A stretch of 27,401 nucleotides of DNA from a virus, in IMG/VR virus record IMGVR_UViG_3300005253_000115, positions 1 through 27,401 of that record; one strand, written 5' to 3'. The notes beneath the pieces are model-generated. The model had not been told where the DNA came from. It worked only from the letters and a program-made list of their open reading frames with translations, and did not search any database. The position numbers were made by a program, and so were the translations under genes. Shown here piece by piece: positions 3 to 20,409 of the stretch. Numbering within the stretch: the first letter of the stretch is position 1; the number at the start of each line of letters is the position of its first letter.

Positions 3-3000
3 ACCGGGATGTTGGTTCTTAGACGCAAAGGAAGAATATTTATATCTGGCAATTCTGGCAAAACCTCAGCTGCAGCTATGGAAATAGGTCTTTACAAACC
101 TATATTTCTGTTTAAAAAGTATGGTATTAAGGAAACACGCTGGGTAGTTGTAAGAAACTGTTTTGATGATAAAACGGAAATATTAACAGAAAAACGTGGT
201 TGGGTGCTATTTAAAGATCTAAAAAAAGATGATAAAGTTGCTTCTAATGTAAATGGGAAAACAGAATATGTTAATCCAACATATTATTATCAAGCACCTT
301 ATAATGGCGAAATGATAGGGATAAAATCACAGAATATAGATTTATTAGTTACCCCCAACCATCATTTATGGGTTTCAAAAAGAAAAACAAGAAAAAAGAT
401 ATGGAATGATTATGAACAAATAAAAGCAGAAGATATTTATGGAATAGGTGAATTAAACAGAATGAGTTCTATTGGTAAATGGGATGGCGGTAAGAAAACA
501 TTTAAAAAGGCATATTTTGAATTTTTAGGTTTCTGGTTTGCTGAAGGGTATGCCGGAATATATAAGAGAAAAAATTCGAATGGTTATCATTATAGACTTT
601 CTGTTATTCAAAATAAACGAAAAGATATGTATGTAGAGAAGTTATTAGCGAAAAATGGTTTTAAATTCTCAATTTGCAAAAAAGCAAGCACAGGGAATGC
701 ATATAATTATTCTTTTAGTATAGAGAGCAATAGCATTAAAGAATTAATATCCGAATTATCTGGATATGGCAAAGCAAAAACAAAATATTTGCCGCATTAT
801 ATTAAAAATGCACCGGCAACATATTTAAGAGCATTTTTAAAAGGATACCAGGAAGGCGATGGAAGTTTTAAAAATGGACATCCTAATAAATGCGATATTT
901 TATTTACTGCATCAAGACAACTTGCTGATGATTTACAAGAAATAATATTTAAATCTGGCAAATGTTCTGTTATAAACTTATTAAAAACAGGAAATGATAT
1001 TCGCGGTTATACTATTACCATAAGAACAAAACATAGGTCTTATCCAATAATGCTAAAACAGCATTGGTCAAAACAAGATTATAACGGGAAAGTCTATTGT
1101 ATTGAAGTACCTTCTCATGTCATTTATGTTAGAAGAAATGGAACATGTGTATGGTCTATGCAGAGCTATATCGAATTAACTGATACAACTTTGCGTACAG
1201 TCAGGGAATGGTTCCCCGGGGCAGAATATTTTGAGAAATCGAAGTATGGAAGCAAAGTAATGTTTATTGAGCACCCGAAGTATGGCATAAGAACAGAACT
1301 GTTATTCAGATCCTGCGATAATCCAGACGATGTTAAGAAGTTTAAATCATTAGAATTAACAGGTTACTGGATAGATGAGAGTATAGAAGTAGATGAAAAT
1401 ATAAAGAAGATGTTAAAAAACAGATTGGGCAGGTTTCCAAAGAAATGTCCAGTCAGGTTTGGCATTGAAACAACGAATCCCCCAGATGTAGAACACCCTA
1501 CATATTCACAATTCCAATGGAATGTTCCTCCACCCGGGCCTAAACCAAAAATAGAACCGCTGGTCGGGCATTACGGGTTTTGGCAACCACCCTATGAAAA
1601 TGCAGAAAATCTAAGACCCGGTTATTACGATGATTTGAGAAATGACTACAAAGATGACCCAGACTGGGCAGATATGTATATAGATGGAAAACCAGGTATT
1701 ATTATCAAGGGTAAGCTTATTTATAACAATTATAGGAGAGATATACACGAATCAAAAAAATCGTTAGTATGGAAGGGTGGTAGGTTAATAAGGGGATGGG
1801 ATAATTCCGGGAACATACCGGCAGCTGTTGTGTTGCAGACTCCGACAGAAGAAAATCGAACCAGTTATGATTCAGTACAGGTTTTAAGGGAATTCACTAC
1901 AGACAGAGAAAATATAGAAGATTTTGCAAAAAGGGTAGTTATGGTATGTAATAGTTTATACCCAAACGCAAAATATCTTGATTTCGGGGATCCGGCCGGT
2001 GATAATCAATACAGTAAAGGGGGAGGAGGATTTACCAGCAATTCACAAATAATGCTCGAAGGGTGTGGCGTGAATGTATATCCTTCCGAACAAAACTTAA
2101 CAATGAGGATAACTTCTGTTGAAAACTTATTGAAAAGAATAGATGGGCTTTTAATCGACCCTAGTTGCGTAAGGCTATTAAATGGATTTCTCGGAGGTTA
2201 TAATTATCCAAAGATCGGTAGCACAGAATGGTATTCTGATAAACCTGCTAAAAACAGGTTTTCACATTGTCTTGTTGGGGAAACTTTAGTATCTACTCCA
2301 TTCGGCAAAAAAAGAATTGATAAAATAAAAGTAGGGAATATTGTCAATACACATAAAGGACCGAAAATAGTAACAGCAACTATGAATAGTATATCAAATC
2401 AACTGGTAAAAATTAGTATTGATGATGGAAACTCTTTGACTTGTACCAACAATCATCCCATTGCTAAAGATTATAATTGCTTTTCTCGTGCCGATGCATT
2501 ACATTATGGTAATGGCATAATAGGAGAGAAATTCTTATGGGACGACCTGCAAAACACAGAATACAAGAATTCAACGGTATTAAGTTTTATTGGAAACCTA
2601 ATGGATATTACAAAGCAGATTGGAGAAAAGATAAAGGCATTTACATGCATGTTGCTGTTTGGCAATTCTATAAAGGAGAGATTCCAAAAGGTTATCACAT
2701 ACATCACAAAAATCATAACAAGTCAGATAATAGAATTAAAAATCTCGAATTATTATCTATATCAAAACACCAATCCTATCATGGTAAAACAAGAATATTG
2801 TTCTATCCGGATGCTGTCAGAAGACACATGGAAAAAATCAGACCATTGGCAACAGCGTGGCATCGTACAGAAGAAGGACGAATATCAAGCAAGAAAGCAG
2901 CAAAGGCAATGTGGAAAAAAGCAGAGAAGGAAGATAGGAAATGCACTGTCTGCGGTAAACAATACGAAGGTATTAGAAATTTTGGAAGGAAAAATTTCTG

Positions 3001-3347
3001 TTCTTCTTCCTGCCAGCAAAAAAATCGTAGGGATTCTGGTTTGGATAATGAAGAAAGAATATGCATATATTGTAAAAAACCTTTTCAAACTTCAAAATAC
3101 TCCAAAACAACCTCATGTTCAAAATATTGTGCCCAAAAATTCCGATTCAGTAAAAGTATATGATCTAACAGTAGAAGATTCCCATACATTCTATGCAAAT
3201 GGAATATTGGTTGGCAATTGTCACGATGCTTTACAATACGCTATTGTGCGTATATTCCAAAGTATAGATGATAATGATGATGATTGGGATGAAGACGAAT
3301 ATGATATTACGAGAGATACGGGCAGGAGTAAAGTAACCGGTTATTGA
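3..3347 (+). CDS. terL: Terminase large subunit precursor with two inteins (5' partial)
   Basis: This is the ATPase and nuclease that pumps phage DNA into the capsid through the portal. Counting from the ATG at 9, Walker A (G-N-S-G-K-T) is at residues 14-19 and Walker B (W-I-D-E) at about 454-457. RNase H-like nuclease acidic residues lie in L-D-F-G-D-P-A-G at about 657-664, and the last one is in H-C-H-D-A-L-Q-Y near the C terminus. Removing inteins of 335 and 317 residues from 1112 leaves about 460, the usual TerL size, and rebuilds R-N-S-Y-I-E-L and S-H-C-H-D-A-L. The frame is open to the left edge, the ATG at 9 has no Shine-Dalgarno sequence, and Walker A sits unusually close to it, so the true start is probably outside the window. 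The stop is followed after 14 bases by the portal ATG. The identification is very secure. Confidence 0.96.
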   Translation, partial: TGMLVLRRKGRIFISGNSGKTSAAAMEIGLYKPIFLFKKYGIKETRWVVVRNCFDDKTEILTEKRGWVLFKDLKKDDKVASNVNGKTEYVNPTYYYQAPYNGEMIGIKSQNIDLLVTPNHHLWVSKRKTRKKIWNDYEQIKAEDIYGIGELNRMSSIGKWDGGKKTFKKAYFEFLGFWFAEGYAGIYKRKNSNGYHYRLSVIQNKRKDMYVEKLLAKNGFKFSICKKASTGNAYNYSFSIESNSIKELISELSGYGKAKTKYLPHYIKNAPATYLRAFLKGYQEGDGSFKNGHPNKCDILFTASRQLADDLQEIIFKSGKCSVINLLKTGNDIRGYTITIRTKHRSYPIMLKQHWSKQDYNGKVYCIEVPSHVIYVRRNGTCVWSMQSYIELTDTTLRTVREWFPGAEYFEKSKYGSKVMFIEHPKYGIRTELLFRSCDNPDDVKKFKSLELTGYWIDESIEVDENIKKMLKNRLGRFPKKCPVRFGIETTNPPDVEHPTYSQFQWNVPPPGPKPKIEPLVGHYGFWQPPYENAENLRPGYYDDLRNDYKDDPDWADMYIDGKPGIIIKGKLIYNNYRRDIHESKKSLVWKGGRLIRGWDNSGNIPAAVVLQTPTEENRTSYDSVQVLREFTTDRENIEDFAKRVVMVCNSLYPNAKYLDFGDPAGDNQYSKGGGGFTSNSQIMLEGCGVNVYPSEQNLTMRITSVENLLKRIDGLLIDPSCVRLLNGFLGGYNYPKIGSTEWYSDKPAKNRFSHCLVGETLVSTPFGKKRIDKIKVGNIVNTHKGPKIVTATMNSISNQLVKISIDDGNSLTCTNNHPIAKDYNCFSRADALHYGNGIIGEKFLWDDLQNTEYKNSTVLSFIGNLMDITKQIGEKIKAFTCMLLFGNSIKERFQKVITYITKIITSQIIELKISNYYLYQNTNPIMVKQEYCSIRMLSEDTWKKSDHWQQRGIVQKKDEYQARKQQRQCGKKQRRKIGNALSAVNNTKVLEILEGKISVLLPASKKIVGILVWIMKKEYAYIVKNLFKLQNTPKQPHVQNIVPKNSDSVKVYDLTVEDSHTFYANGILVGNCHDALQYAIVRIFQSIDDNDDDWDEDEYDITRDTGRSKVTGY
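159..1163 (+). mobile_element. Intein 1 in TerL with LAGLIDADG endonuclease
   Basis: This is a self-splicing protein element of 335 residues (51-385 of the precursor). It starts with Cys51 in C-F-D-D-K-T-E-I-L. It has a block-B T-P-N-H motif (L-L-V-T-P-N-H-H-L) and ends in the strand V-Y-C-I-E-V-P-S-H-V-I-Y-V-R-R-N-G followed by W-S-M-Q. The +1 residue is Ser386. The middle holds the two helices of a LAGLIDADG homing endonuclease, L-G-F-W-F-A-E-G-Y and F-L-K-G-Y-Q-E-G-D-G-S. The element therefore looks complete for both splicing and homing. It interrupts a conserved terminase motif that becomes V-V-R-N-S-Y-I-E-L-T-D-T-T after splicing. The last residue is Gln rather than the usual Asn, and Met precedes it in place of the common His or Gly. 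Boundaries were chosen from the intein blocks and the rebuilt host motif. Confidence 0.93.
2522..2526 (+). promoter_or_regulatory. Internal ribosome binding site for the nested HNH gene
   Basis: AGGAG lies 10 bases upstream of the ATG at 2537, inside the intein 2 coding sequence. Its presence supports separate translation of the HNH protein from the terminase message rather than a frameshift. Confidence 0.65.
2537..3163 (+). CDS. HNH homing endonuclease nested out of frame in intein 2
   Basis: This 208-residue protein is read in a different frame from the terminase-intein and lies wholly inside it. The N-terminal half is an HNH_3-type nuclease: W-Q-F-Y-K-G-E-I-P-K-G-Y-H-I-H-H-K-N followed by N-R-I-K-N-L-E-L-L. 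That arrangement supplies the paired His and Asn of the beta-beta-alpha-metal site (about residues 54-74). The C-terminal half carries two Cys pairs of zinc-ribbon type, C-T-V-C-G-K...C-S-S-S-C and C-I-Y-C-K-K...C-S-K-Y-C, probably for DNA binding. The ATG has AGGAG upstream. The likely role is to cut intein-free terminase genes and so spread the intein. Coding in two frames over more than 600 bases is unusual. Confidence 0.9.
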   Translation: MGRPAKHRIQEFNGIKFYWKPNGYYKADWRKDKGIYMHVAVWQFYKGEIPKGYHIHHKNHNKSDNRIKNLELLSISKHQSYHGKTRILFYPDAVRRHMEKIRPLATAWHRTEEGRISSKKAAKAMWKKAEKEDRKCTVCGKQYEGIRNFGRKNFCSSSCQQKNRRDSGLDNEERICIYCKKPFQTSKYSKTTSCSKYCAQKFRFSKSI

Positions 3348-3361
3348 TAAAGGGTAAAGAA

Positions 3362-5128
3362 ATGGCTGAAAACGATAAAACAACGCTCGAAAAATATGTG
3401 AATTCACAAAATATAACGGAATTTCTCGATACAACAAAGTTAAACGAAATAAGTCAATGGGTATCGGATGAATATTCAGTTGATTTACAAAGCCGTGAAG
3501 ATTGGGAAAAAGAATATTACAAAGGAAAAAAACTTGCATTAATGGTAGAAGAAGCAAAAACATTTCCATTTGAGGGCGCTTCAAATGTTAAATTTCCTTT
3601 GATAATCCAAGCGGTGTTAAATTTTTCTGCTAGAGCATATCCTAACTTAATAAAAAACAGAGATGTTGTTAAATGTAAAGTTATCGGTGAAGACCCGGAA
3701 GGTGAGAAAAAGGCAAGGGGTATTCGTATAGCAGAACATATGAATTATCAGTTATTCGATCAGATTGATGATTGGGAAGAGAACACTGATAAAGTATTGT
3801 CATGTATAGCGTTGTATGGTGTTTATTTTAAAAAAACGTGGTTTAGTTTTGAGAAAAGAATTAATGTATCAAAAGCTATTGACCCGATAAGAGTTGTTAT
3901 TAATTATCATGCTAAAAGTTTAGAAGATGCACCAAGAATTACTCATGTTTACACACTATTGCCTAATGAAATCGAAGAACGAATAAGAAGTGGCATGTTC
4001 GTTAAATTTGATTATGAGTCGACAAAACAGGAAGTAGATGATGAAGTAAATCTTGATTATCCGAAAGATGATAGAGGGTATAAACGTGCTAATAATCCAA
4101 ACGACCTTGATAGCCCGGTTACTTTTCTTGAACAGCATAGATGGTTGGATTTAGATAATGATGGATATAAAGAACCATATGTTGTTACTATGCATCACGC
4201 AACAAAAGAAATCGTGAGAATAGTTGCGCGATTTGATATTGATGGAATAAAAGTAAATCCAGATACAAATGAGATAATGAAAATTGAACCGGTACAGTAT
4301 TTCACTAGATTTATATTTCTCCAAGCGCTTGATGGCGGTATATATGGGATGGGCTTTAGTAAACTATTATACCACATGAACGAAATAATCAATACATCTG
4401 TCAATCAAATGTTTGACGCTTCAACAGACCAAATAACTGGCGGTGGGTTTATTACGCAAGGAGTTGAAGTTGGCAAAGGACATGAAGGTGGGCGAATTTA
4501 CTTTAAGTTTGGTGAATATAAGATGGTCAAGTCGAAAGGCGATGATTTAAGAAAAAACATACTTCCGAGAGAAACAGCAAAACCTTCGCTTGTTCATATT
4601 AAATTACTCGAATTAATGCTTAAAGCTAGCGAAAAACTAGGATCTAATATTGAGTTGTTAAGCGGAAAACAAACTGGCTCAAATATTCCCGCAGCGACAA
4701 CACTTGCTTTAATCGAGCAAGGGTTACAGATGTTTACTGCAATTTATAAGAGAATATACCGAGGATTTAAGTCCGAATTTAGAAAATTATATAGATTAAA
4801 TAGACTTTATTTGGATGAAACGGAATATTACACCGTATTAGACAATGAAAGAGCAATAGCAAAAGAAGATTATGAAGACAAATCATTGGATGTTGTGCCA
4901 GTAAGTGATCCGAACAATATAACGAATGTCCAGAAAATAATGGTAGCGCAAGAACTTATGCAACTTAAGGGAACAGGTCTTAACGATAAGGAAATCACAA
5001 GAAGGTATCTTGAAGCATTAAATATACCGGATATAGATGATTTGGGTGTTGAAGAAATGAAAATACCCCAAGATCCAGAGGCAGCGTCAGATGTGTATAA
5101 GAGACAGCAATTGAAGAAGCCAAGTTAA
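3362..5128 (+). CDS. Portal protein, N-terminal part (C terminus cut by adapter artefact)
   Basis: This is the dodecameric channel at the capsid vertex through which DNA enters and leaves. The body shows features of P22-like portals: F-E-G-A-S-N-V-K-F-P-L-I, R-A-Y-P-N-L, the W-L-D-L-D-N-D-G-Y-K-E-P-Y-V-V loop, and G-K-Q-T-G-S-N-I-P-A-A-T-T near the crown. The ATG at 3362 was preferred to an in-frame TTG at 3344 because AGGG lies just upstream. The final residues, S-D-V-Y-K-R-Q onward, are translated from a sequencing adapter, so the real coding part ends near 5080. Rejoined to the downstream segment it would be about 693 residues, close to the 725 of P22 gp1. Confidence 0.9.
   Translation: MAENDKTTLEKYVNSQNITEFLDTTKLNEISQWVSDEYSVDLQSREDWEKEYYKGKKLALMVEEAKTFPFEGASNVKFPLIIQAVLNFSARAYPNLIKNRDVVKCKVIGEDPEGEKKARGIRIAEHMNYQLFDQIDDWEENTDKVLSCIALYGVYFKKTWFSFEKRINVSKAIDPIRVVINYHAKSLEDAPRITHVYTLLPNEIEERIRSGMFVKFDYESTKQEVDDEVNLDYPKDDRGYKRANNPNDLDSPVTFLEQHRWLDLDNDGYKEPYVVTMHHATKEIVRIVARFDIDGIKVNPDTNEIMKIEPVQYFTRFIFLQALDGGIYGMGFSKLLYHMNEIINTSVNQMFDASTDQITGGGFITQGVEVGKGHEGGRIYFKFGEYKMVKSKGDDLRKNILPRETAKPSLVHIKLLELMLKASEKLGSNIELLSGKQTGSNIPAATTLALIEQGLQMFTAIYKRIYRGFKSEFRKLYRLNRLYLDETEYYTVLDNERAIAKEDYEDKSLDVVPVSDPNNITNVQKIMVAQELMQLKGTGLNDKEITRRYLEALNIPDIDDLGVEEMKIPQDPEAASDVYKRQQLKKPS
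5080..5107. other. Embedded Nextera/Tn5 adapter sequence (assembly artefact)
   Basis: All 28 bases match the 3' part of the Nextera read 1 adapter, and 5089-5107 is the 19-base Tn5 mosaic end AGATGTGTATAAGAGACAG. Translated, it gives the peptide S-D-V-Y-K-R-Q. It breaks the portal reading frame. Deleting 26 bases (for example 5082-5107) restores one frame, reading P-E-A-I-E-E-A-K across the join. It is not biological DNA. Confidence 0.96.
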
Positions 5129-5469
5129 ACCTTGAAAAAAGAAAGTTGGATATTAACGAGAAAAAACTAAAAATAGATGAACTTCAAACTAAATTTGAGA
5201 TATTAAAAACAAAAGCAGAAACAACAAAAACTAAAGCCGAGGCACTTAAAGCGGTAGCGGAAGCAGAAGCAGAAGAAGCAGGTCCGCAAATGGAAGAATA
5301 TAAAAAAACAATTGCAGAACTAGAAGGGCAAAGAAACGAAATGAATGACCTTCTAAACGAACAGACAGATTTGATAGAAGGCGGAATAAATGAAAAACGT
5401 AGACTCGGGGCATCAAAAGAATTGGCTGGCCCACCCGGTAACGCAGGAATTCCTACTGCAAGCAAATAA
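5107..5469 (+). CDS. Portal protein, C-terminal coiled-coil segment
   Basis: These 120 codons (A-I-E-E-A-K-L-N-L-E-K-R onward) lack any start codon with a ribosome binding site; the first candidate is a bare TTG at 5146. They begin exactly where the adapter ends. The sequence is rich in Lys, Glu and Ala, as expected for a long helix or coiled coil like the C-terminal barrel of P22-type portals, and it ends in a flexible Gly/Pro tail. It is best read as the missing end of the portal gene rather than as a separate gene. Confidence 0.85.
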   Translation, partial: AIEEAKLNLEKRKLDINEKKLKIDELQTKFEILKTKAETTKTKAEALKAVAEAEAEEAGPQMEEYKKTIAELEGQRNEMNDLLNEQTDLIEGGINEKRRLGASKELAGPPGNAGIPTASK

Positions 5470-5635
5470 ATTAATGCAGGATATTAGAAATGAGATAGGA
5501 GAAGGCGTTTGTTTGGATAGAAGTAGCGTTGACAATACAGCTATTAACTATACTTCTGATGTTTCAAGAGCTGAAGGAATAGAAGAATTGATAAAATACG
5601 CAACAAATATTAAAGAAGAAACAGAAGAAAAATAA
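5390..5635 (+). CDS. Small phage protein following the portal
   Basis: This 81-residue soluble protein is unrecognised by name. Its N-terminal pattern W-L-A-H-P-V-T-Q-E-F-L, followed by an amphipathic helix and a C-terminal segment E-G-I-E-E-L-I-K-Y, resembles small proteins often coded directly after phage portals. The ATG at 5390 overlaps the end of the portal by 80 bases in another frame, and AAGGCGG upstream is a reasonable ribosome binding site. Its role is unknown; the position suggests an assembly helper or small virion component. Confidence 0.7.
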   Translation: MKNVDSGHQKNWLAHPVTQEFLLQANKLMQDIRNEIGEGVCLDRSSVDNTAINYTSDVSRAEGIEELIKYATNIKEETEEK

Positions 5636-5641
5636 AAAACA

Positions 5642-5809
5642 ATGGACAAAAACAAAAAAATTGATATATTACATATTGAAACTGAAATAAAGAGATATAT
5701 TAATGAGTGGAAGTTGACAAAAAAAACAGGCTCATTATCGTTTGATATTAATTTTTTATTAGGGGGCATTAGAGATGTCAACGTGAAGTATAATGTAAAA
5801 ATTAAATAA
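5642..5809 (+). CDS. Small hypothetical protein (55 aa)
   Basis: This short reading frame starts six bases after the previous stop and fills the space before the terminator. It encodes a Lys- and Ile-rich peptide with G-S-L-S-F-D-I-N-F-L-L-G-G in the middle. The ribosome binding site is weak (GAAGAAAA). No family was recognised. The tight spacing and full use of the gap favour a real gene, but this is uncertain. Confidence 0.5.
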   Translation: MDKNKKIDILHIETEIKRYINEWKLTKKTGSLSFDINFLLGGIRDVNVKYNVKIK

Positions 5810-5858
5810 ACGATACCTAGGGATACTTTTCACAGAAAAAGAAAAATTGATTCTAAAG

Positions 5859-5899
5859 CTCGTATTTTGCAAATAGTTTGCATTAATACGAGTTTTTTT
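5859..5899 (+). terminator. Intrinsic terminator between the portal block and the head genes
   Basis: The stem CTCGTATT/AATACGAG (5859-5866 with 5885-5892) continues through a second stem TGCAAA/TTTGCA (5868-5873 with 5877-5882) with a three-base loop, and is followed by seven T (5893-5899). It lies just upstream of the co-chaperonin ribosome binding site, so it probably lowers rather than stops transcription of the capsid genes. Confidence 0.8.
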
Positions 5900-5920
5900 A
5901 TTAAACAGAAGGAGATAGGA

Positions 5921-6181
5921 ATGGTAAGGCTAGAGCTTTTAGGATGGAGAATACTTATAGAGCCTGATAAGACACAGGATATGGAACAGATGGCAGTAGT
6001 CAAAGGAAAAGTGGTTTCGATTGGCCCGACAGCATTTGGAAAAGAAAGAGACAAATCAACACTAAAAGAAGGAGATACAGTTCATTTCGCAAAGTATTCT
6101 GGGTCTATTGTCAAATTGAACAATATAGAATACAGAATAGTCAATGACGAAGATTTGCTGGGAATAGAAAGAGAGGAATAA
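5921..6181 (+). CDS. GroES-like co-chaperonin
   Basis: This 86-residue protein has the Cpn10 layout: R-I-L-I-E-P-D-K near the N terminus, then V-V-K-G-K-V-V-S-I-G-P, then K-E-G-D-T-V-H-F-A-K-Y-S-G, and N-I-E-Y-R-I-V-N-D-E-D-L-L-G-I at the end. These correspond to the beta-barrel strands of GroES. The mobile loop that contacts GroEL would be around residues 16-25 (T-Q-D-M-E-Q-M-A), which is shorter and less hydrophobic than in E. coli GroES. The ATG at 5921 was chosen because AAGGAG precedes it; an in-frame ATG at 5867 lies inside the terminator hairpin. Its place before the scaffold and capsid genes suggests a capsid-folding role, as T4 gp31 has. Confidence 0.85.
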   Translation: MVRLELLGWRILIEPDKTQDMEQMAVVKGKVVSIGPTAFGKERDKSTLKEGDTVHFAKYSGSIVKLNNIEYRIVNDEDLLGIEREE

Positions 6182-6182
6182 G

Positions 6183-7118
6183 ATGGGAGATGAAGAGAAA
6201 ACCAGTACCGGTGGGAATAGCATCGAAATGGGTTCAGATTATAATATACCGAGTTCCGATGAGAACGCAACTGGAGAAGTAGAGAACAAAACACCTGAAA
6301 AACAAAGTATAGAAACAATAACGCCAGAGGCAAGAGCGGAGATCGAAACTGCACATACACTAAAAATTGCAAAAACAATGGGGTATAAAACAAAGGAAGA
6401 ACTTGGCACTGATGCAGAAAGCAGGGAATTTCTTGACCCACTTAAATATATAACAAATGCTCAGGAGGTAACGAGAACAAAAGGCGATACAATTATAAAA
6501 CTTGGGACAAAAATAGATAATCTCGAAAATTTAATAACGGAACAAAATAAACATCAGGGCGCAATAGTAAAAGCGCGTGTAGACAGAAGACTTGCTGAAT
6601 TAAAAGAAGACAAGGACAAAGCCATTACAGAAGGTGATACCGCTGGTGTTGCCGCAGTTGAAAAGGAAATGGAGGATATAAGCAAAGAAGTGCTTCCCGA
6701 GAATAAGGAAGAAGAAAAGACAGAAAACAAAGAACAGGAAGCGGCTGAAAATAAAATAATGGCCAATTGGCAAAAAGATAATTCATGGTTTGGGGAAGAT
6801 ACTGAATTAACATCAATGGCTAAAAGCATAGCGCAAGAATTTGCTGATTCTGTGCCACTTGAAAATATACTGGATGTTATAGATGCAAAATTGAATAGGT
6901 TTGTAAGCACTGCCAAAACGACACAAAAAGAATTAGAAACAAAAACAGCTAGATCTTCGTTGGTTGATGATGGGGATTTTTCAGGCAAAAAAACATCTAC
7001 ATTTAATGATTTAACATATGACCAAAAAAAGGTGTATGAAAGTTTTGAAAAAGCTGATCCTCATTTTAATGGAGAAAATTGGATAAAAGAATTAGACGAG
7101 ATTGGAGAATTAGGATAA
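6183..7118 (+). CDS. Probable capsid scaffolding protein
   Basis: This 311-residue, very acidic and highly charged protein has a disordered N terminus and long predicted helices (E-A-R-A-E-I-E-T-A-H-T; the D-R-R-L-A-E-L-K-E-D-K-D-K-A region). A more ordered patch, N-S-W-F-G-E-D-T-E-L-T-S-M-A-K, lies near residue 200. Composition and position between portal and major capsid match scaffolds that line the procapsid and leave before packaging. It starts one base after the co-chaperonin stop. No motif proves the function; the call rests on gene order and composition. Confidence 0.7.
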   Translation: MGDEEKTSTGGNSIEMGSDYNIPSSDENATGEVENKTPEKQSIETITPEARAEIETAHTLKIAKTMGYKTKEELGTDAESREFLDPLKYITNAQEVTRTKGDTIIKLGTKIDNLENLITEQNKHQGAIVKARVDRRLAELKEDKDKAITEGDTAGVAAVEKEMEDISKEVLPENKEEEKTENKEQEAAENKIMANWQKDNSWFGEDTELTSMAKSIAQEFADSVPLENILDVIDAKLNRFVSTAKTTQKELETKTARSSLVDDGDFSGKKTSTFNDLTYDQKKVYESFEKADPHFNGENWIKELDEIGELG

Positions 7119-7720
7119 TGAAAAATAATAAAAATGAATTTGATATAATGGCTGATGATATTTCAGGAAAAACAGAAGAAAATACCAAAGAACAAAAAAC
7201 AAAAAAACTTACTAAACAAAAACCAGAACAAAAAGAAGAAACAAAACCAGAGAAAACAGCGATAAATCCAGAAAAAGAGGAATTGTTGGATGGTAGATAC
7301 AGAACCGATAGTCCAACAAGAAAAGGTAGAAAAGCAATAGGGGGCAGAAATCCCCTACAATTTGAAAAAAGACCGGGCTTTCACCGCAGAGTGTTTAATG
7401 ACACAGAAGACAGAATAGCCCAAGCCGAAGAAAGTGGATACAGAATTGTAACAGAGAAAACTAAAGGTGGCGATGATAGAGCTGGTGCAGATTCACAGCA
7501 AGCGACACCTGTTGTACGGTCTGTTGGCGCTGGAATGAAAGGCGTATTAATGGAAGAACCGGAAGAGTTCTATAACGAAGACCAGAGAAAAAAGCAGGAA
7601 CAAGTTGATATTGGTGAAGCAGATATACTTAGAACAGGAACTACTCCCGGCCTTATGCAGAAAGGCCAACAGGTTATGGGTGATGGGGCATATGGTGATG
7701 GGTTAAAAATTAAACGATAA
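7118..7720 (+). CDS. Hypothetical head-region protein
   Basis: This 200-residue protein overlaps the previous stop by one base (TAATG). The first 60 residues are Lys/Glu/Gln-rich and look disordered. A conserved-looking core, R-P-G-F-H-R-R-V-F-N-D-T-E-D-R-I-A-Q-A-E-E-S-G-Y, follows at about residues 84-107. The Gly-rich tail ends in K-I-K-R. Similar R-P-G-x-H-R-R cores occur in uncharacterised proteins next to capsid genes of other podoviruses. It may be a minor virion protein; no activity can be assigned. Confidence 0.75.
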   Translation: MKNNKNEFDIMADDISGKTEENTKEQKTKKLTKQKPEQKEETKPEKTAINPEKEELLDGRYRTDSPTRKGRKAIGGRNPLQFEKRPGFHRRVFNDTEDRIAQAEESGYRIVTEKTKGGDDRAGADSQQATPVVRSVGAGMKGVLMEEPEEFYNEDQRKKQEQVDIGEADILRTGTTPGLMQKGQQVMGDGAYGDGLKIKR

Positions 7721-7746
7721 TTTATAAATGGCAATAAGGAGTAAAA

Positions 7747-8319
7747 ATGGCTAATAATGATGCTCCTCATGGGTTTACACCCATTAAGCATTTAAGTGGA
7801 GCGCCTTATAGTGGGCAGGCAAATAAATACAATATTGCTTCTGATTATAGCACTGCATTGTATATAGGCGATATTGTTAAACTTGCCGGTTCTGCCGATA
7901 CCAGAGGTGTGCCAACAATCGAAAGAGCAGCTGCAACCGATTTACCAGTAGGTGTTATTACAGCCTTTGAACCGAAACCGGAATCTGGACTTGACCAGAA
8001 GTATAGTCCAGCTGATGAAGTCGGTTATGCTTGGGTTTGCGATGACCCTAATGTAATCATGCGCGCTCAGGAGGATGGTACACTTACCGCAGGTGATATA
8101 GGTTTGAACACCAAACCTACGACAACTGCTGGTAGTATCGTAACCGGTATATCTGGCGAAGAACTTGATTATTCCGAAGCCGGTTCAACGAATACCTTGA
8201 TGTTTAAAATTCTTCGGCTTTATGATGCCGAGGATAATGAAATTGGCGCCGATTCTGAGTGTGAATGTAAGTTCAATGTTCATGCTTATTCAACAGAAAC
8301 TGGCACAACCGCGACCTAA
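7747..8319 (+). CDS. Putative capsid decoration or stabilising protein
   Basis: This 190-residue protein is rich in small, Thr and acidic residues and looks all-beta. The N terminus, M-A-N-N-D-A-P-H-G-F-T-P-I-K-H-L-S-G, and the Y-I-G-D-I-V-K-L-A-G strand are typical of small head proteins coded directly upstream of the capsid gene. D-L-P-V-G-V-I-T-A-F and V-I-M-R-A-Q suggest a barrel. The start has AAGGAG upstream. The role as an outer-surface decoration protein is inferred from position and fold-like pattern. Confidence 0.72.
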   Translation: MANNDAPHGFTPIKHLSGAPYSGQANKYNIASDYSTALYIGDIVKLAGSADTRGVPTIERAAATDLPVGVITAFEPKPESGLDQKYSPADEVGYAWVCDDPNVIMRAQEDGTLTAGDIGLNTKPTTTAGSIVTGISGEELDYSEAGSTNTLMFKILRLYDAEDNEIGADSECECKFNVHAYSTETGTTAT

Positions 8320-8340
8320 TAGCAATGAAAGGAGTTTATA

Positions 8341-9252
8341 ATGGCTCCCATTTCGACTGGTAGTTTTCCTAAATTGCTATGGCCCGGTATCAAGAATATT
8401 TACGGTCTGGCATATAAGGAACATAAGGCAGAATATCCCGATATATATGATTTAACCACATCCGATAAAGCTTTTGAGGAAGTTGTCGGTGTGACAGGTT
8501 TTGGTCTTGCACCTGTGAAAACGCAAGCCGGTGCTGTAGCTTATGACACAGCTACCCAAGGTTATACTAAGCGATACACCAATGTTACATATGGTTTAGG
8601 ATTTATTATAACCATGGAGATGTACGAAGATAATCAGTACGCTCAATTCTCATTGACAAGGGCAACAGCTCTTGCGTTCTCTATGAGACAAACTAAAGAA
8701 ACAGTTTCCGCCAATGTGCTTAATAGAGGTTTTAACGCTAACTATGCACAGCCTGACGGTAAGGCACTTTTAGCGACCGACCATGTTAAAATCACTGGTG
8801 GATCATGGTCAAATGAATTAACTACCCCTGCAGATTTATCCGAAGCAGCTTTGGAACAAGCATGTATTGATATTGGCAAGTTTACAAACGACAGAGGAAT
8901 GAAAATCGCTGTCCGGCCAATGACTTTGATTGTTCCCGTTGATCAGGAATTTAATGCAGAACGAATCCTGCTTACTACTCTTACTCCCGGTAGCGCCAAC
9001 AACGCTATTAATGTGATAAGAGCAAGAAACAAGATTCCTAACGGTGTAAAAGTTAATCATTATCTGACCGATACCGATGCCTGGTTCATCAAAACCAATT
9101 GTCCTATTGGCATGACTTATCAAGAAAGACGAGCAGATAAGTTTGCTATGGACAATGATTTTGACACCGAAAACGGTAAATACAAAGCAACCGCTCGTTA
9201 TGCGGTCGGTTGTTCTGATGAACGTGGAATCTTCGGATCGCCGGGCGCCTAA
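8341..9252 (+). CDS. Major capsid protein (Mu gpT / HK97-fold type)
   Basis: This 303-residue protein forms the shell. Recognisable features are Y-G-L-G-F-I-I-T-M-E-M-Y-E-D-N near residue 85, the helix A-F-S-M-R-Q-T-K-E-T-V-S-A-N-V-L-N-R-G-F, A-L-L-A-T-D-H at about 141, P-M-T-L-I-V-P-V-D-Q-E-F and D-T-D-A-W-F-I-K-T. These match the order seen in Mu gpT-like capsid proteins with the HK97 fold. AAAGGAG gives a strong start, and the codon choice looks more GC-rich than in neighbouring genes, consistent with high expression. No protease gene or delta domain is visible, so the shell probably uses the separate scaffold upstream. Confidence 0.88.
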   Translation: MAPISTGSFPKLLWPGIKNIYGLAYKEHKAEYPDIYDLTTSDKAFEEVVGVTGFGLAPVKTQAGAVAYDTATQGYTKRYTNVTYGLGFIITMEMYEDNQYAQFSLTRATALAFSMRQTKETVSANVLNRGFNANYAQPDGKALLATDHVKITGGSWSNELTTPADLSEAALEQACIDIGKFTNDRGMKIAVRPMTLIVPVDQEFNAERILLTTLTPGSANNAINVIRARNKIPNGVKVNHYLTDTDAWFIKTNCPIGMTYQERRADKFAMDNDFDTENGKYKATARYAVGCSDERGIFGSPGA

Positions 9253-11795: not shown

Positions 11796-12545
11796 ATGAA
11801 AGAAGATACAAAAATCTGTAAAAAATGTAAGATTGAAAAACCATTAAGTGAGTTTTATTTTAGAAAAGATAATAATGGTTATAGAAATGAATGTAAAATA
11901 TGTTTTATAAAAATTAGAAAAGAATATAGAGAAAAATACCTTTATAAATCAAAAGAAATAGCACATAAAAGTTATTTAAAAAGATATAAAGAAAATCCTG
12001 AAAAAATAAAAGCAGAAAGATATAATAACCTTAAAAATTGGAGAGAGAATAACCTAGAGAAAGTTCTTGCTCAAGGTAAAAAATGGAGGGAGGAAAATCC
12101 CGAAAAGTCTCGCATTAAATGCCAAAAATGTAGGGAAAAAAATCCTAAAAATTTTAAAATAAGTGCACATAAAAGTTATTTAAAAAATAGATTAAGTTCA
12201 CAATACAGGTTAAATTGTTCAATAGCGCAAGGATTACGACATTCATTAAATAAAAATAGTGGAAGTAAAAACGATAGACACTGGGAAGGTTTGGTTGGCT
12301 TTACAATTAAAGAGTTAAAGAAACACCTTGAAAAACAATTTGCCGAGGGTATGAGTTGGAAGAATTATGGTGATTGGGAAATTGACCATATCATCCCTTT
12401 ATCAGCACATAATTTTAGCGATGTAAACCACATAGATTTTAAGCGAGCTTGGAGTTTAGATAATTTACAACCAATGTGGAAAATAGAAAATTTGCAAAAA
12501 AGTAATAAACTCGAACAATCATTCCAGCCAAGTTTGGCAATATAA
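11796..12545 (+). CDS. Free-standing HNH homing endonuclease
   Basis: This 249-residue protein has an N-terminal zinc knuckle (Cys8, Cys11, Cys33, Cys36), a long Lys/Glu-rich spacer with repeated E-N-P-E-K patterns, and a C-terminal HNH domain. That domain reads W-E-I-D-H-I-I-P-L-S, then N-H-I-D-F-K-R-A-W-S-L-D-N-L-Q-P-M-W, then E-N-L-Q-K-S-N-K-L. It starts one base after the glycosyltransferase stop with little ribosome binding site and is more AT-rich than its neighbours, as expected for a mobile gene dropped between essential genes. Its last codons resemble two remnants elsewhere in the window. Confidence 0.9.
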   Translation: MKEDTKICKKCKIEKPLSEFYFRKDNNGYRNECKICFIKIRKEYREKYLYKSKEIAHKSYLKRYKENPEKIKAERYNNLKNWRENNLEKVLAQGKKWREENPEKSRIKCQKCREKNPKNFKISAHKSYLKNRLSSQYRLNCSIAQGLRHSLNKNSGSKNDRHWEGLVGFTIKELKKHLEKQFAEGMSWKNYGDWEIDHIIPLSAHNFSDVNHIDFKRAWSLDNLQPMWKIENLQKSNKLEQSFQPSLAI

Positions 12546-17785: not shown

Positions 17786-20323
17786 ATGACCGAAACAACC
17801 ATAGCTTTCGTTGATTCTGACCCTGACACTATAACCGATAGCGGAAACGCTTTTGTTTCTAATGGGTTTTTGGCCGGCGAAATTATTAATGTATCTGGAA
17901 GTACAAATAATGATGGTGATTACAGAGTGCAAACGGTTGCTGTTGGTACTTTAACACTTGCTGGTGATGATGCTTTAACTACCGAAGGTGCAAGTGCAAG
18001 TGTAACTATTTCGGTTGTGACATATAGCGTTACATTATTTGGATATAAAACAACCGGTTCTGCGTGGGATTTTCTTGGTGATTTAACCGATTTTGTCATT
18101 GATGGCACTTATTATCATAAAAACGCCAAGAATCCGACATTTACATATAATGAATCATTGAGGTTGCTTCCTAGTAATGTAAGTAAAGCTGATGGCACAA
18201 ATGAATCGAAAGGTATATGGGTGGGATATATTAATAGGTCTTTGTTTGACGGTCTCTATACTCCTACTGCAAAATTCTATGATTATGATGTAACTCCAAC
18301 AAAGCCAGTCTTTGAACCATTTACTACGCTTGAATATGCTTATACAGGGAGCGGTAGTGCTGATGCCGATAATTATTGGTATAAATATTCTTATGTTTAT
18401 GATGGGAACCAAGAGAGTTTATTATCGGATACTGTTTACCATTGGGATGTAAGTGGTGTTGATAAATTTCTACAAATAGCATTATTGTTACGATCACCAA
18501 CAATAACACCCAATAGCAGAATTACTGGATTAAAAGTTTATAGAGCAACAGCAATAGGTAGCACATATGAATTATTAACTTTTGTGGATTTATTAAGACC
18601 TGCATCTGCTGTTCCCACTGAAACAACTGGTGTTTACAATGCTGACGATAGAGTATGTATACCCGCATTAACGACTTATAATTTTAACGCTGGTTTTACT
18701 TATAAAATAAGTTTTAATACTGGAGCCAATAAATATGAGATTACCAATCCAGGAGCAGGTACGGGTTCTACAGTTTTCGTATTTACTGCACATACAACAG
18801 CAAGTGATGATTGGGATGTTGATTGGGAATTATATCACAGCGATGATGCGTATGCGGCTTCAGTAGCATCAAGCACGGATGGAGGCTCATACTGGGGAAC
18901 AAATACAATAGTTTCCGATACAGTTCATACTGAGGATTCATTAGTAGGTGGCGTTATTTTCACTTTCGCAGGTCAAAGGGTTATAAAAAATAATATTAAT
19001 AAAGCTATTCGTGTTTATGACGCAGTTGCAGGAGTTAATAATTCGTATTACTCTATAGCAATACCATCGGAAGGATTATATTTATCAAGAGGTGCAACAA
19101 CTACGTATACTTATATTTATGATACTCTGCAAGTAACGCCTTCTGGTGAACATCCTCTGATTGGTGAAGTTTCTATAAAGGTTAATGGAAGATTTGCTGA
19201 AATGATAGGCGGTAGATTGTGGCAAGCAAACATCGTTCTAGACCCTGGCAATAAAGGCGAAATACATGAAGATTGGGCTACTTATTCAGAACTTTACCAG
19301 CCTGACGTCAATCCTGTTGAAAATGCCAAATTTGTACCAGACCGAGAAGGTGGAGAAATAACAGGAATCGCACAAGTGTTTGGGAATCCGGTATTCTTAA
19401 AGAAACAGGCAATTATAAGACTTGATGTTACAATAGCACCCGGAACGCCATCTACTTGGAAAACAATAGAATCGCCTCATAATATAGGTAACATAGCTCC
19501 TAATGGAAGTATAACTGTATTAGGTGATTTATATATTGTTTATTATGATGGAATTTATAGAATTAAACCAAGTAATTATGCAGAATCAGATAATACGCCT
19601 ACTGAAAATTTGAGAATATCTGAGCCTATTACTGATACTTTTGACAATATGACAAATGCCGAAAAAGTATTAGTTAAATGCGAGTATGACCAAAACCTTA
19701 GTGAAATACTTTATATATTTCCGCTATCGGCAGGTGACGAAATGTGGGCATATAATATTAATTCAGAGCAATGGAGAGAGATAGAAACAGGACAAACATT
19801 TAACGAAAATTCGATGTTCGCACTTGACGAAGTTGCTGATGTTATGGCATACGATTCTGCTGACCAGAAAGTTTATTCTCTTGCTGTTGAGGAAGACGTT
19901 GATATAGAATTTCATACGAAAACATTCCCAATATCTTTTAAACGGTCTCAATTAGTTAAATATCTTACAGTACGTTACAAATCAGATGAAACGATAACAT
20001 TAGATGTTTATTCTGATATAGTATTTAGTGAAGGTGATTTGGTAGATGCAAAAACGTATAGAATACATGCTAGTACGGGTGGTCTTGATATGACGAATAT
20101 CGGAGCCGCAAATAATAATGTAGGTACTGATTTTACTTGTGCTGGCGGTGTAACCCCAACATCTTGGGGGACTGGCTCAATAGTTCAAACCAGTCCAATA
20201 GCAACAAAAACTTTACCTGTGCATCATGAAGCGCTGGGTTCGCGAGTTCTATCTGAAATTCTCAACGAGTTGAAAAATGAACAAAATCTGAACATATTGA
20301 TTTTAAGCGTTGTTGGGCGTTAA
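17786..20323 (+). CDS. Large tail protein, main part
   Basis: These 845 residues share the frame of the segment ending at 17746; the ATG at 17786 has no ribosome binding site, so one gene of about 950 residues is more likely. A beta module (T-I-T-D-S-G-N-A-F-V-S-N-G-F, then V-S-G-S-T-N-N-D-G-D-Y-R-V) comes first. A tail-protein core follows: Y-Y-H-K-N-A-K-N-P, R-L-L-P-S-N-V-S-K-A-D-G-T-N, W-V-G-Y-I-N-R, L-K-V-Y-R-A-T, R-L-W-Q-A-N-I-V-L-D-P-G, Y-D-G-I-Y-R-I. This resembles large stabilising or tube-like proteins of podoviruses that sit below the adaptor. The last ten or so codons are read from DNA that encodes part of an HNH gene in another frame, so the native C terminus has probably been replaced. 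Confidence 0.72.
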   Translation: MTETTIAFVDSDPDTITDSGNAFVSNGFLAGEIINVSGSTNNDGDYRVQTVAVGTLTLAGDDALTTEGASASVTISVVTYSVTLFGYKTTGSAWDFLGDLTDFVIDGTYYHKNAKNPTFTYNESLRLLPSNVSKADGTNESKGIWVGYINRSLFDGLYTPTAKFYDYDVTPTKPVFEPFTTLEYAYTGSGSADADNYWYKYSYVYDGNQESLLSDTVYHWDVSGVDKFLQIALLLRSPTITPNSRITGLKVYRATAIGSTYELLTFVDLLRPASAVPTETTGVYNADDRVCIPALTTYNFNAGFTYKISFNTGANKYEITNPGAGTGSTVFVFTAHTTASDDWDVDWELYHSDDAYAASVASSTDGGSYWGTNTIVSDTVHTEDSLVGGVIFTFAGQRVIKNNINKAIRVYDAVAGVNNSYYSIAIPSEGLYLSRGATTTYTYIYDTLQVTPSGEHPLIGEVSIKVNGRFAEMIGGRLWQANIVLDPGNKGEIHEDWATYSELYQPDVNPVENAKFVPDREGGEITGIAQVFGNPVFLKKQAIIRLDVTIAPGTPSTWKTIESPHNIGNIAPNGSITVLGDLYIVYYDGIYRIKPSNYAESDNTPTENLRISEPITDTFDNMTNAEKVLVKCEYDQNLSEILYIFPLSAGDEMWAYNINSEQWREIETGQTFNENSMFALDEVADVMAYDSADQKVYSLAVEEDVDIEFHTKTFPISFKRSQLVKYLTVRYKSDETITLDVYSDIVFSEGDLVDAKTYRIHASTGGLDMTNIGAANNNVGTDFTCAGGVTPTSWGTGSIVQTSPIATKTLPVHHEALGSRVLSEILNELKNEQNLNILILSVVGR

Positions 20324-20409
20324 CCAATTTCCAACCAATGTGGGCTAAAGAAAATATGAAGAAAAGCAACAAATTAATAAATGACTTTCAGTTAAGTGTG
20401 TCAATATAA
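20293..20409 (+). pseudogene. HNH endonuclease gene remnant (3' end)
   Basis: In a frame different from the upstream tail gene, 38 codons plus a stop align without gaps to the C terminus of the HNH endonuclease ending at 12545, with 24 of 38 residues identical. Key motifs are H-I-D-F-K-R-C-W-A-L-T-N-F-Q-P-M-W and E-N-M-K-K-S-N-K-L. Upstream the frame closes at TGA (20278-20280), and the catalytic D-H is missing. The first 31 bases overlap the end of the tail gene. It is a decayed homing endonuclease gene. Confidence 0.88.

Follow-up and report, generated by a model that had tools for sequence, protein, structure and literature searches.

The window analysed here comprises the whole IMG/VR record (27,401 bases). 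Its portal gene contains a 28-base sequence that is almost certainly Nextera (Tn5 tagmentation) adapter retained in the assembly, and not phage DNA. The adapter in the portal gene is an ordinary artefact rather than biology, and it matters solely for quality control, as it makes one portal look truncated and adds one small gene that does not exist.

The sequence GGCAGCGTCAGATGTGTATAAGAGACAG at positions 5080-5107 (plus strand) agrees in 28 of 28 bases with the 3' end of the Nextera read 1 or Tn5ME-A oligonucleotide and includes the full Tn5 mosaic end, exactly as a sequence-only reading of this DNA had proposed. As printed, the Tn5ME-A oligonucleotide (Illumina FC-121-1030) terminates in these 28 bases (PMC4248319), and the 19-base mosaic end, identified from the same source and from PMC10037646, is complete and exact at 5089-5107 (plus strand). 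The full 33-base oligonucleotide was not found in the window; the copy there lacks TCGTC, the first five bases. Given the base composition, the expected number of chance occurrences of the 28-mer on both strands of the window is about 5e-13; the mosaic end has a single match in the window when up to three mismatches are allowed, compared to 0.02 expected from shuffles. The G+C content of the 28-mer is 50%, that of the portal gene 35%. The stretch is foreign and synthetic, although its first four to six bases (GGCA or GGCAGC) may equal native phage sequence. The mosaic end stops at 5107 with phage DNA to its right, i.e. the adapter lies outside and the mosaic end touches the insert.

Since transposase can act on a mosaic end, one might think of a true insertion of a Tn5-derived construct, or of a natural IS50 end, in the phage genome, but we regard this as extremely improbable. 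The mosaic end was engineered to replace the natural transposon ends (PMC4248319), the transposon body is absent, GGCAGCGTC is part of the sequencing oligonucleotide, and the mosaic end was found in the portal locus of none of the 87 relatives with a closed portal ORF described below. A search for a 9-base target duplication immediately adjoining the adapter gave none; TTGAAGAA, an 8-base match, is present on both sides of the adapter, but it lies 23 bases to the left of it and is not flush. Even smaller is the probability that the 28 bases truly occur in the virus population, for example through a released Tn5-engineered construct, and that the portal is made as two chains.

The portal reading frame in the window and in related phages

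The window contains a tailed-phage head module with genes for the terminase large subunit, the portal, a GroES-like co-chaperonin and the major capsid protein, and the gene holding the adapter is a Caudoviricetes portal gene. Its left part matches the profile of phrog_1216 (E 1.9e-14) and scores 22.8 bits against Pfam SU10_portal, which is under the 30-bit cut-off. From the ATG at 3362 the frame is native up to the codon 5081-5083 (3362-5083, plus strand, 574 amino acids). The upstream ORF then reads ASDVYKRQQLKKPS (5084-5128, plus strand), which derives from adapter bases followed by native sequence in the wrong frame, and meets a stop at 5128, 14 codons past 5083. The native C-terminal part of 119 amino acids (5110-5469, plus strand) is coiled-coil-like, rich in alanine, glutamate and lysine, and stands in a different frame; the ORF caller lists it from 5146 on, wrongly, as a gene of its own. 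Left and right parts together comprise 693 residues (574 and 119). The sequence-only reading had stated that deletion of 26 bases restores a portal of this length: such a deletion does re-open the frame, but the figure of 26 is too definite, as removal of 23 bases would have the same effect.

Both nearest relatives possess an uninterrupted portal. In L002 (IMGVR_UViG_3300035698_006264) it is a single ORF of 694 amino acids, to which the left part of the window's portal aligns down to its final residue, followed directly by the right part in the same L002 frame, with 71% identity left of the join and 46% in the tail to the right of it. In L139 the portal is likewise one continuous ORF, and the more distant phages MW202796, OK172329 and MW202785 each have single portal genes of 680-722 amino acids. 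A wider comparison covered 92 loci, among which the contig of L002 appears a second time; the portal ORF is closed in 87 of them. In each of these 87 relatives it extends 67 residues or more beyond the junction, with a median of 115 compared to the 119 residues of the window's tail, and in none does it end near the join; the split is not conserved. The continuity in related phages that the sequence-only reading had named as a check is thus present throughout, and its view that the portal only looks truncated, with a C-terminal coiled coil that only looks like a separate gene, is borne out. Its warning that an analysis of 'gene splitting' would go wrong here was likewise justified, because the split is an artefact that no relative shares.

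These comparisons also bear on the idea of a truly split portal gene, or of one with a programmed frameshift, that merely happens to contain the adapter sequence. Two ORFs in different frames do flank the join, as such a gene would have them. However, the ORF is continuous in every one of the closed relatives, and the frame breaks precisely where a perfect copy of a synthetic adapter lies, so that we consider this reading exceedingly improbable, on a par with a true Tn5 insertion.

The DNA on the two sides of the adapter belongs together, given that a single collinear match to L002, in one piece, spans 3467-9143. Identity to L002 in 300-base bins is also similar to the left and to the right of the join, so the record does not combine two different viruses. 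A second assembly of this virus was sought in viral_contigs by an exact two-sided search (AAAATACCCCAAGATCCAGA, a gap of 0-30, TTGAAGAAGCCAAGTTAAACC), with no match.

Adapter copies in IMG/VR and the route of the join

A location at the contig end is typical of Nextera adapter contamination, though not required. Our scan of IMG/VR for the 28-mer found at least 120 other stretches. Of the 121 copies among the matches listed, 117 are found no more than 100 bases from a contig end; these all face inward, and 108 of the 121 are preceded by TCGTC, the rest of the oligonucleotide. The other four are located away from the end that they face away from; one of them, in L005, adjoins Ns, a sign of a scaffold gap. 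A scan for further truncated copies, restricted to those with a base other than C in front of the 28-mer, gave a single one besides that of the window, at a contig end. A mosaic end preceded by A or T was observed in 12 stretches, many of them with back-to-back mosaic ends; such palindromic arrangements, some of them internal, occur in the IMG/VR records L127, L129, L131, L133, L134, L135 and L137.

The copy in the window has the same orientation as the 117 contig-end copies. It is unlike most of them in being internal (the left end of the 27.4-kb record is 5.1 kb away), in having no TCGTC and in directly abutting the correct neighbouring sequence to the left and to the right, and for this reason the route of the join can only be inferred. 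The simplest route, we infer, is a join of two pieces at a short overlap, during scaffolding or gap closing. A library fragment would have started at about 5108 (CAATTG...), and reads through a short fragment would carry the adapter on the outer side. If left untrimmed, the adapter would have formed the start of the piece on the right, as at many other contig ends. An assembler or scaffolder would then have linked this adapter end to the sequence that truly precedes it, most likely through a few bases common to phage and adapter: GGCA, or GGCAGC if the phage of the window shared the GCAGC that both close relatives have here. The portal gene would thereby have become 23 or 26 bases longer and acquired a false frameshift.

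Alternatively, the join might be a real chimeric library molecule, in which an adapter-ended fragment was fused to its neighbour by template switching at GGCA or GGCAGC during tagmentation or PCR. The exactness of the join, with the adapter cut where its bases coincide with those of the phage, speaks for this possibility, as does the fact that a de Bruijn assembler normally needs reads over the join. On the other hand, such a molecule should be rare compared to native reads and would not normally dominate the consensus, and inward-facing adapters at contig ends are the usual form. We regard a chimeric molecule as the less likely origin, though as the chief alternative. If it were the origin, single reads would contain the junction, and the 28 bases would still be an artefact, although one of library preparation and not of the assembler.

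The number of extra bases depends on how much of the adapter coincides with native sequence: phage and adapter have GGCA in common if 26 bases are extra, and GGCAGC if 23 are. Both nearest relatives possess GCAGC at this place and have one residue more than the 26-base reading yields, and the pairwise DNA alignment with L002 shows a 23-base gap at the adapter. We therefore consider 23 extra bases at least as likely as 26.

Terminase inteins and putative mobile endonucleases

The terminase inteins near the portal merit more attention than the adapter. The second intein of the terminase large subunit occupies 2268-3221 of the window and contains a nested HNH_3 endonuclease ORF (2537-3163, plus strand, 208 amino acids, E 1.1e-16) that is out of frame with the terminase/intein frame, which is itself open throughout. 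Identity to L002 is 74% in the HNH frame and 59% in the intein frame, with 46/26/63 substitutions per HNH codon position. The splicing blocks share 91-95% DNA identity with L002 compared to 74% for the terminase extein, and L139 has an empty site for this intein. The higher identity of the splicing blocks, the empty site and the conservation of the HNH frame together suggest that the second intein may be mobile and dual-coded.

The first terminase intein lies at about 160-1180, just after the Walker A region, with Hint at amino acids 49-141 and LAGLIDADG at 272-312 of the ORF from base 9. It apparently ends in Asn-Thr in L002 and in Gln-Ser in the window, where the C-terminal residue would accordingly be non-standard. 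Between terminase and portal, L002 carries a free-standing gene at 3235-3939 that is HNH-like by eye, with no Pfam match, and has DNA matches at 12182-12544 and 20290-20408 of the window. These similarities suggest a mobile endonuclease family that would be scattered in these phages.

Comparison with known portals and contaminated records

The left part of the portal in the window matches the family of phrog_1216 or SU10-like portals, from which it differs only by the false frame break, and MW202796 and OK172329 share the gene order of the window (terminase, portal, GroES, capsid).

The identical adapter is present not only in the 120 or more viral stretches of IMG/VR but also in 22 GenBank phage records, in some cases with split annotated genes. 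Given this spread in public records, a simple mosaic-end scan would clean such data sets. In Acinetobacter phage TAC1 (L231, MK170160.1 21207-24234) the adapter, at 1501-1528 of the locus with primer sequence on its left, sits between two genes that are both annotated as tail fibre protein and are perhaps one split gene. In Escherichia phage vB_EcoM_WFK (L230, MK373775.1 147249-152276) it lies around 2501-2528 of the locus, in a block of Nextera adapter and index-primer sequence that splits the annotated gene of the long tail fibre, proximal subunit. The sister phage WFL6982 (MK373774.1) does not have this block and matches with 100% identity in two pieces flanking it; about 77% of the 1,101-base WFK query was matched in sister phages, WFL6982 included. 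The case of WFK resembles that of the window in that an identical 28-mer inside a gene has split the annotation and is absent from a sister phage, but its block is longer, with index-primer sequence upstream, whereas the window holds only the 28 bases.

A literature search on the translation DVYKRQ/MCIRDS returned nothing useful about contamination. Adapter contamination of microbial genome databases, mostly at contig ends, has been described (Moeller et al. 2024, PMC11536531). Both there and in the window an untrimmed Illumina adapter lies within assembled contigs and degrades the accuracy of the assembly. However, their case concerns the TruSeq universal adapter at contig ends, in contrast to the Nextera Tn5ME-A end of the window, which is internal and would therefore be missed by trimming of contig ends.
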